Notes under the pieces: generated by a model
The model's input: only the letters and a program-made list of their open reading frames with translations
What the model was told of the DNA's origin: nothing
Databases searched by the model: none
Position numbers and translations under genes: made by a program
Shown: one piece after another, positions 32,563 through 32,624 of the stretch
Position numbering within the stretch: position 1 is the first letter of the stretch
How the letters are laid out: each line of letters opens with the position of its first letter
Assembly: GCA_014360805.1 (NCBI GenBank)
Contig: JACIWU010000019.1
Location: forward strand, 1 to 43,383
DNA length: 43,383 nucleotides
From: Chloroflexota bacterium
GTDB taxonomy: Bacteria > Chloroflexota > Anaerolineae > DTLA01
Direction of reading: 5' to 3'

Positions 32563-32624
32563 GGCTAACACGCGCTTGCACCTGACGCCGCTTCGCGGCG
32601 CAGGTGAAGCGCGAGCCGTTGGGC
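32563..32624 (+). other. Putative integron attC recombination site
   Basis: 62 nt. GGCTAAC (32563-32569, R-double-prime-like) and GTTGGGC (32618-32624, fits the GTTRRRY R-prime consensus) flank an imperfect inverted repeat: GCGCTT/AAGCGC, CACCTG/CAGGTG and CGCCGC/GCGGCG around a TTC loop, with single unpaired bases G32578 and A32585 both in the left arm, as attC extrahelical bases require. The centre GACGCCGCTTCGCGGCGC matches what I recall of the aadA attC centre. Length and distance from the preceding stop are typical. No integrase or second attC is visible. Confidence 0.72.

Follow-up and report, generated by a model that had tools for sequence, protein, structure and literature searches.

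Integron integrases (IntI) bind the folded bottom strand of attC sites, the partners being attI, another attC or attG sites in the chromosome. According to the accounts given in PMC12690207, PMC12901181 and PMC12444791, insertion by IntI into chromosomal attG sites was established by Loot et al. (2024, Nat Microbiol 9:228). The intI gene was reported in Chloroflexi in 2008 (PMC2426708) and Chloroflexota are listed among the integron-bearing phyla (PMC8618304, PMC9668308), so that a preliminary description of the locus treated here, which called integrons rarely discussed in this phylum, overlooked a record going back to 2008. The same description was right in calling toxin-antitoxin (TA) genes common in cassettes, as few kinds of genes are found in cassettes more often (PMC8618304), and BrnT/BrnA is listed among the integron-associated genes in metagenomes (PMC7370490). 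In addition, the mobile integron-associated resistance gene sul4 may, according to one proposal (PMC5732528), have come from Chloroflexota, which makes native integrons of this phylum relevant to the question of how resistance genes become cassettes.

The window, i.e. the whole stretch of 43,383 nt that was analysed, is one contig of a Chloroflexota genome and contains a hairpin of 62 nt which is almost certainly a true integron attC site. Its parts and the features around it are listed in Table 1.

Table 1. Features of the attC locus (positions in the window)
Feature	Position	Strand	Remarks
Dispersed chromosomal repeat, part	32026-32137	+	about 22 genome copies; left outer limit of the cassette
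Predicted promoter, sigma-70-like, TTGACA-17-TACAGT	32160-32188	+	10/12 match; presumed function
GTTGGAC	32204-32210	+	candidate left cassette junction G32204^T32205
Putative cassette extent	32205-32618	+	414 bp; deduced from the two G^TT positions
Junction sequences			...GAACGGATG ends at 32204; TTGGGCGTATGG starts at 32619
ORF, 92 aa	32270-32548	+	first 17 brnT codons fused in frame to brnT-associated antitoxin
attC site (R''-L''-L'-R')	32563-32624	+	62 nt; covariance model, fold, centre sequence
R'' box GGCTAAC	32563-32569	+	6/7 vs RYYYAAC
Stem block 1 CGCGCTT/AAGCGCG	32571-32577 with 32607-32613	+	
Extrahelical base 1	32578	G top strand, C bottom strand	fold; aligns with extrahelical C of attC aadA1
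Stem block 2 CACCTG/CAGGTG			between unpaired G 32578 and unpaired A 32585 on the 5' arm
Extrahelical base 2	32585	A top strand, T bottom strand	fold
Stem block 3 CGCCGC/GCGGCG			closes TTC loop 32592-32594
Spacers			A between R'' and stem block 1; AGCC ahead of R'
R' box GTTGGGC	32618-32624	+	perfect GTTRRRY match
Expected crossover	between G32618 and T32619	bottom	

The covariance model R1 was built from an alignment (A1) of 13 attC-like sites from relatives only, sequences of the own genome being excluded. With this model the site scored 73.3 bits on the + strand (E 2.3e-17 genome-wide), which is far above background and bears out the attC assignment of the preliminary description; the runner-up in the window was the reverse strand of the site itself with 18.9 bits. 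Changes on both sides were found in 10 of the 24 base pairs of A1, and the observed covariation score was reached by none of 500 shuffles. As R1 also matched the attC sites of class 1 integron cassettes (aadB, catB3 and aadA1, 38.8-43.5 bits), the model describes attC rather than a local repeat. The pattern CACCTGACN{8,38}GCAGGTGA was matched once in the window and not in 100 shuffles; it has three matches in the own genome and is present in 17 of 60 genomes including the own one, the reversed control giving almost none.

The centre of 18 nt (GACGCCGCTTCGCGGCGC), which the preliminary description had likened to that of a classic attC, indeed recurs letter for letter in attC sites on plasmids, in two cases behind aadB and in one behind aadA1. 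A search of plasmids with the whole 62-nt site gave no full-length match, and the three short matches that were inspected come from integron plasmids and all lie inside attC sites. None of the Rfam families matched in the window.

The anatomy described before, with R-box-like ends, a stem of three blocks, the TTC loop and two one-sided unpaired bases, was found to be exact in sequence and fold, including the spacing of 14 nt between the TAG stop codon of the upstream ORF (32546-32548) and the start of the site. The DNA fold has -27.1 kcal/mol (z -4.1), and none of 200 shuffles was equally good. The unpaired bases sit on the R''-L'' arm only, the opposite arm being bulge-free, and extrahelical base 2 is an A in 60 of the 65 sites having a letter there. 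The R'' box GGCTAAC was also found in the attC sites of a relative (G034), where they form an array beside a broken intI.

That the hairpin might be an ordinary dispersed palindromic repeat or a terminator which merely resembles an attC is suggested by its GC-rich, strong stem downstream of a gene. Such elements would, however, not explain two one-sided unpaired bases at the attC positions, conserved R boxes and compensatory changes, the copies in relatives form arrays beside intI, a T run is lacking, and 20 of 60 related genomes have no match at all, which leaves this explanation a negligible chance. A scattered repeat was dropped as a reading since in relatives the same sites form arrays next to intI, at 7-50 nt past stop codons; beside intI they were found in G034, G043, G009 and G035, and contig C1 of G034 combines four attC sites with the broken intI in divergent orientation.

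The gene in front of the attC site is composite. Codons 1-17 correspond to the beginning of BrnT and the remainder to the product of the gene that comes right after brnT in relatives, which have a full brnT (Pfam BrnT, 99 bits) and an antitoxin 75-83% identical to the window ORF; in the same-genus relative G002, for example, a BrnT of 93 aa (99 bits) is followed by an antitoxin of 84 aa with 83% identity. The break relative to these operons lies at 32320/32321, and judged from this comparison an in-frame deletion has removed most of brnT plus the first antitoxin codons. No intact BrnT toxin gene stands beside the antitoxin in the window, and the own genome contains neither a BrnT above the Pfam cut-off nor a second antitoxin copy, so that the gene is an orphan antitoxin. 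The earlier term TA-like gene thus holds as far as the origin from a TA system is concerned, but not for a complete pair, of which only the antitoxin half with its brnT stub is left. With brnT lost, the remaining gene would be able neither to kill nor to addict and would at most protect against related BrnT toxins. A toxin-less TA cassette of this kind would be a natural case in which the stabilising function is lost and the immunity half is kept.

Among 74 homologous loci in GTDB genomes most keep brnT immediately upstream. Only two of them (L221 and L230) have an attC directly behind the antitoxin, suggesting that the family is mainly chromosomal; the idea of a regular cassette gene was dropped for the same reason. 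In L221 (244-1039; Acidobacteria bacterium NC_groundwater_990, a MAG) an intact brnT-antitoxin pair has an attC site on either side, the downstream one beginning 13 nt past the antitoxin stop, showing that the operon exists as a cassette elsewhere. In G002 the brnT-antitoxin operon lies outside the attC array, with no attC directly after it and with an attI-like element a few hundred nt downstream. A locus of Tychonema (L184, 2383-2692) keeps only about 25 brnT codons upstream of the antitoxin, and toxin loss may therefore be recurrent.

By definition a gene cassette has a G^TT at each end and is missing as one unit from relatives. The right end is given by the R' box, and for the left end GTTGGAC at 32204 is the candidate, being the sole GTTRRRY from the end of the upstream gene to the attC; as about 0.7 such motifs are expected by chance over these 693 bp, and about 0.13 from the repeat end to the ORF, a single match has no significance. 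The putative cassette would follow directly after the promoter-like sequence. Host DNA extends to 32137 or further, since the segment 32055-32137 belongs to the repeat with about 22 dispersed copies, for which reason this segment was also rejected as part of the cassette or as attI. The repeat ends in CCACCGAAATG, the copies that were read usually stop just upstream of promoter-like sequences of other genes, and part of it is also found upstream of the attC locus on contig C17.

The locus is flanked by a glycosyltransferase-like gene and a gene for an RNA-binding protein (RRM). An empty site was sought in the same-genus genomes G001 and G002 and none was readable, the two flanking genes being apart in both (C77 and C24 in G002, C259 and C166 in G001); comparison of 31871-32726 with the flanks of these genes in G001 and G002 gave nothing in common except short repeats. 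Adjoining the RRM gene is a direct repeat of 50-70 bp (ctcgcatcttgagttcggcccgtcagaacagggggccgctag...) at 33329-33400 and 33437-33486, which recurs on contigs C75, C30, C17 and C15 with 99% identity.

The description of the locus as one without an integrase has to be revised for the genome as a whole, since a full IntI is encoded on another contig (C79, 12267-13418, L011), with 495.5-496.7 bits against a TIGR02249 cut-off of 265. Among solved structures the V. cholerae integron integrase 2a3v comes closest (332 bits), and the alignment with it covers the extra LPxALxxKYPNA segment as well as the catalytic residues of tyrosine recombinases. The wider search for attC sites that had been proposed together with that for intI was likewise positive: R1 found about five other loci, on C95 (two sites), C68 (two sites), C110, C100 and C17, and these sites begin 9-18 nt past stop codons. 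Between the two sites of C95 (L012, 9839-10644) lies a cassette with a DUF433 and DUF5615 (PIN-like) pair, likely a TA cassette, and between those of C68 a hydrolase-like gene. The stretch from intI to the end of C79 (last letters ...CCGTATAACAAATTGCAGCATAATA) is found again in G002 immediately ahead of an attC array and is therefore probably attI. C79 ends at this attI-like element and C100 starts inside the repeat that follows the same element in G002, suggesting that C79 and C100 (5000-9370, L146) may be one chromosomal integron split by the assembly. Taken together, chromosomal integron parts (IntI, an attI-like element and several attC loci) are documented in a little-studied Chloroflexota genome.

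As described before, the attC site of the window is solitary: no second significant match to R1 was found in the 43,383-bp contig, and the full IntI occurs only on C79. A SALIN is defined as one attC with no other attC or intI nearby, at 4 kb clustering, and the site, alone on its 43-kb contig, is thus a SALIN, i.e. a single attC lacking an integrase. This is a recognised category and Chloroflexota integrons are already known, so the locus adds one more example. Sites standing alone are frequent in these genomes, since 57 of 85 clusters among the 127 listed sites (E up to about 8e-5) hold one site only, a number inflated by contig breaks and missed weak sites.

We consider it probable that the segment 32205-32618 is a solitary gene cassette, consisting of the orphan antitoxin and the attC, which was inserted by IntI at a non-attI chromosomal G^TT and formerly also carried brnT. 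A cassette inserted alone at an attG site would give exactly such a solitary locus. In detail, an IntI from elsewhere in this genome or from an earlier integron would have recombined the folded bottom strand of the attC of a cassette containing brnT and the antitoxin with a G^TT site between the glycosyltransferase-like and the RNA-binding-protein genes, behind a promoter, and brnT would later have been lost by the in-frame deletion. Insertion route, left boundary, order of events and present activity are what we infer here. The missing empty site in G001 and G002, the left junction with its one GTTRRRY of no statistical weight and the operon of G002 without an attC directly after it speak against this reading. 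If it is correct, a cassette living outside an array is documented in this Chloroflexota genome.

Alternatively, a longer cassette array or integron may formerly have occupied this place and have decayed until only this attC was left. CALINs are regarded as degraded integrons (PMC9024848), the same genome has two-attC remnants on C95, C68, C110 and C100, and brnT is already decayed; a second attC above background is, however, absent from the 43-kb contig, and no more than about 70 nt separate the end of the host repeat from the candidate junction. We regard a former array as the less likely reading. Far less credit is given to the proposal that a chromosomal brnT-antitoxin operon gained an adjacent attC, e.g. 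by stray-attC recombination, and never was a cassette here. It would agree with the operon of G002 outside the array and with the absence of an attC by the operon in most of the 74 homologous loci, but a spacing such as the 14 nt between stop codon and attC is normal for cassettes of this genome, and the brnTA cassette of L221 has almost the same one, which makes the proposal a very improbable one.

Canonical attC sites are described as having no complementarity in the spacer that separates the R from the L boxes, and the V. cholerae site recombines less when this spacer is paired (PMC2727003). In the window site the unpaired central spacer is cut to 1 nt versus 4 nt and the remainder pairs, with covariation across related sites; the complementarity GCGCTT/AAGCGC with compensatory changes was seen here and in many sites of relatives. 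When pairing was counted without the model alignment it amounted to 4.5 of 6 positions versus 3.2 with shuffled right arms (maximum 3.9 in 1000), a count which includes two to three positions of the L boxes and in which some automatic anchors are wrong. The paired spacer of Chloroflexota attC sites, read here from sequences, is a lead and not a result. It is possible, if somewhat doubtful, that an attC subclass with a largely paired spacer, in which the conserved extrahelical G is free to vary, is used by the integrons of Chloroflexota and by at least one array of Acidobacteria. IntI would then have to build the synapse with little spacer bulge, a bulge reported to be important for the V. cholerae site (PMC2727003). 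A change of extrahelical base 1 from G to C on the bottom strand costs that site only a 2.7-fold loss (PMC2727003), and by analogy the window attC, with the same change, could still be active. The spacer pairing is open to direct test by existing attC recombination assays.

Compared with the SALIN and CALIN elements described (IntegronFinder 2, PMC9024848; term SALIN, PMC12690207), the locus is alike in having one attC behind one gene on a contig without intI; here, however, intI is found elsewhere in the genome, the phylum is seldom surveyed and the toxin half of the cassette is deleted. With the attG-inserted cassettes of Loot et al. (2024), as these are portrayed in the later literature, it would share the position of a single cassette at a non-integron place of the chromosome, suggested here by the sequence. 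The brnTA cassettes (PMC7370490; L221) have an antitoxin of the same family, followed by attC at 13-14 nt, whereas the brnT of the window is cut short and fused in frame with the antitoxin. The attC sites of aadB and aadA1 (class 1) agree with the window site in the form of the R' box, the top-strand extrahelical A and the identical centre; the window site differs in having C instead of G as extrahelical base 1 on the bottom strand and in its largely self-complementary R-L spacer, which leaves an asymmetric loop of 1/4 nt. Finally, in the Chloroflexota attC sites of alignments A1 and A2 the central spacer appears mostly base-paired with covariation, in contrast to class 1 and V. cholerae sites.
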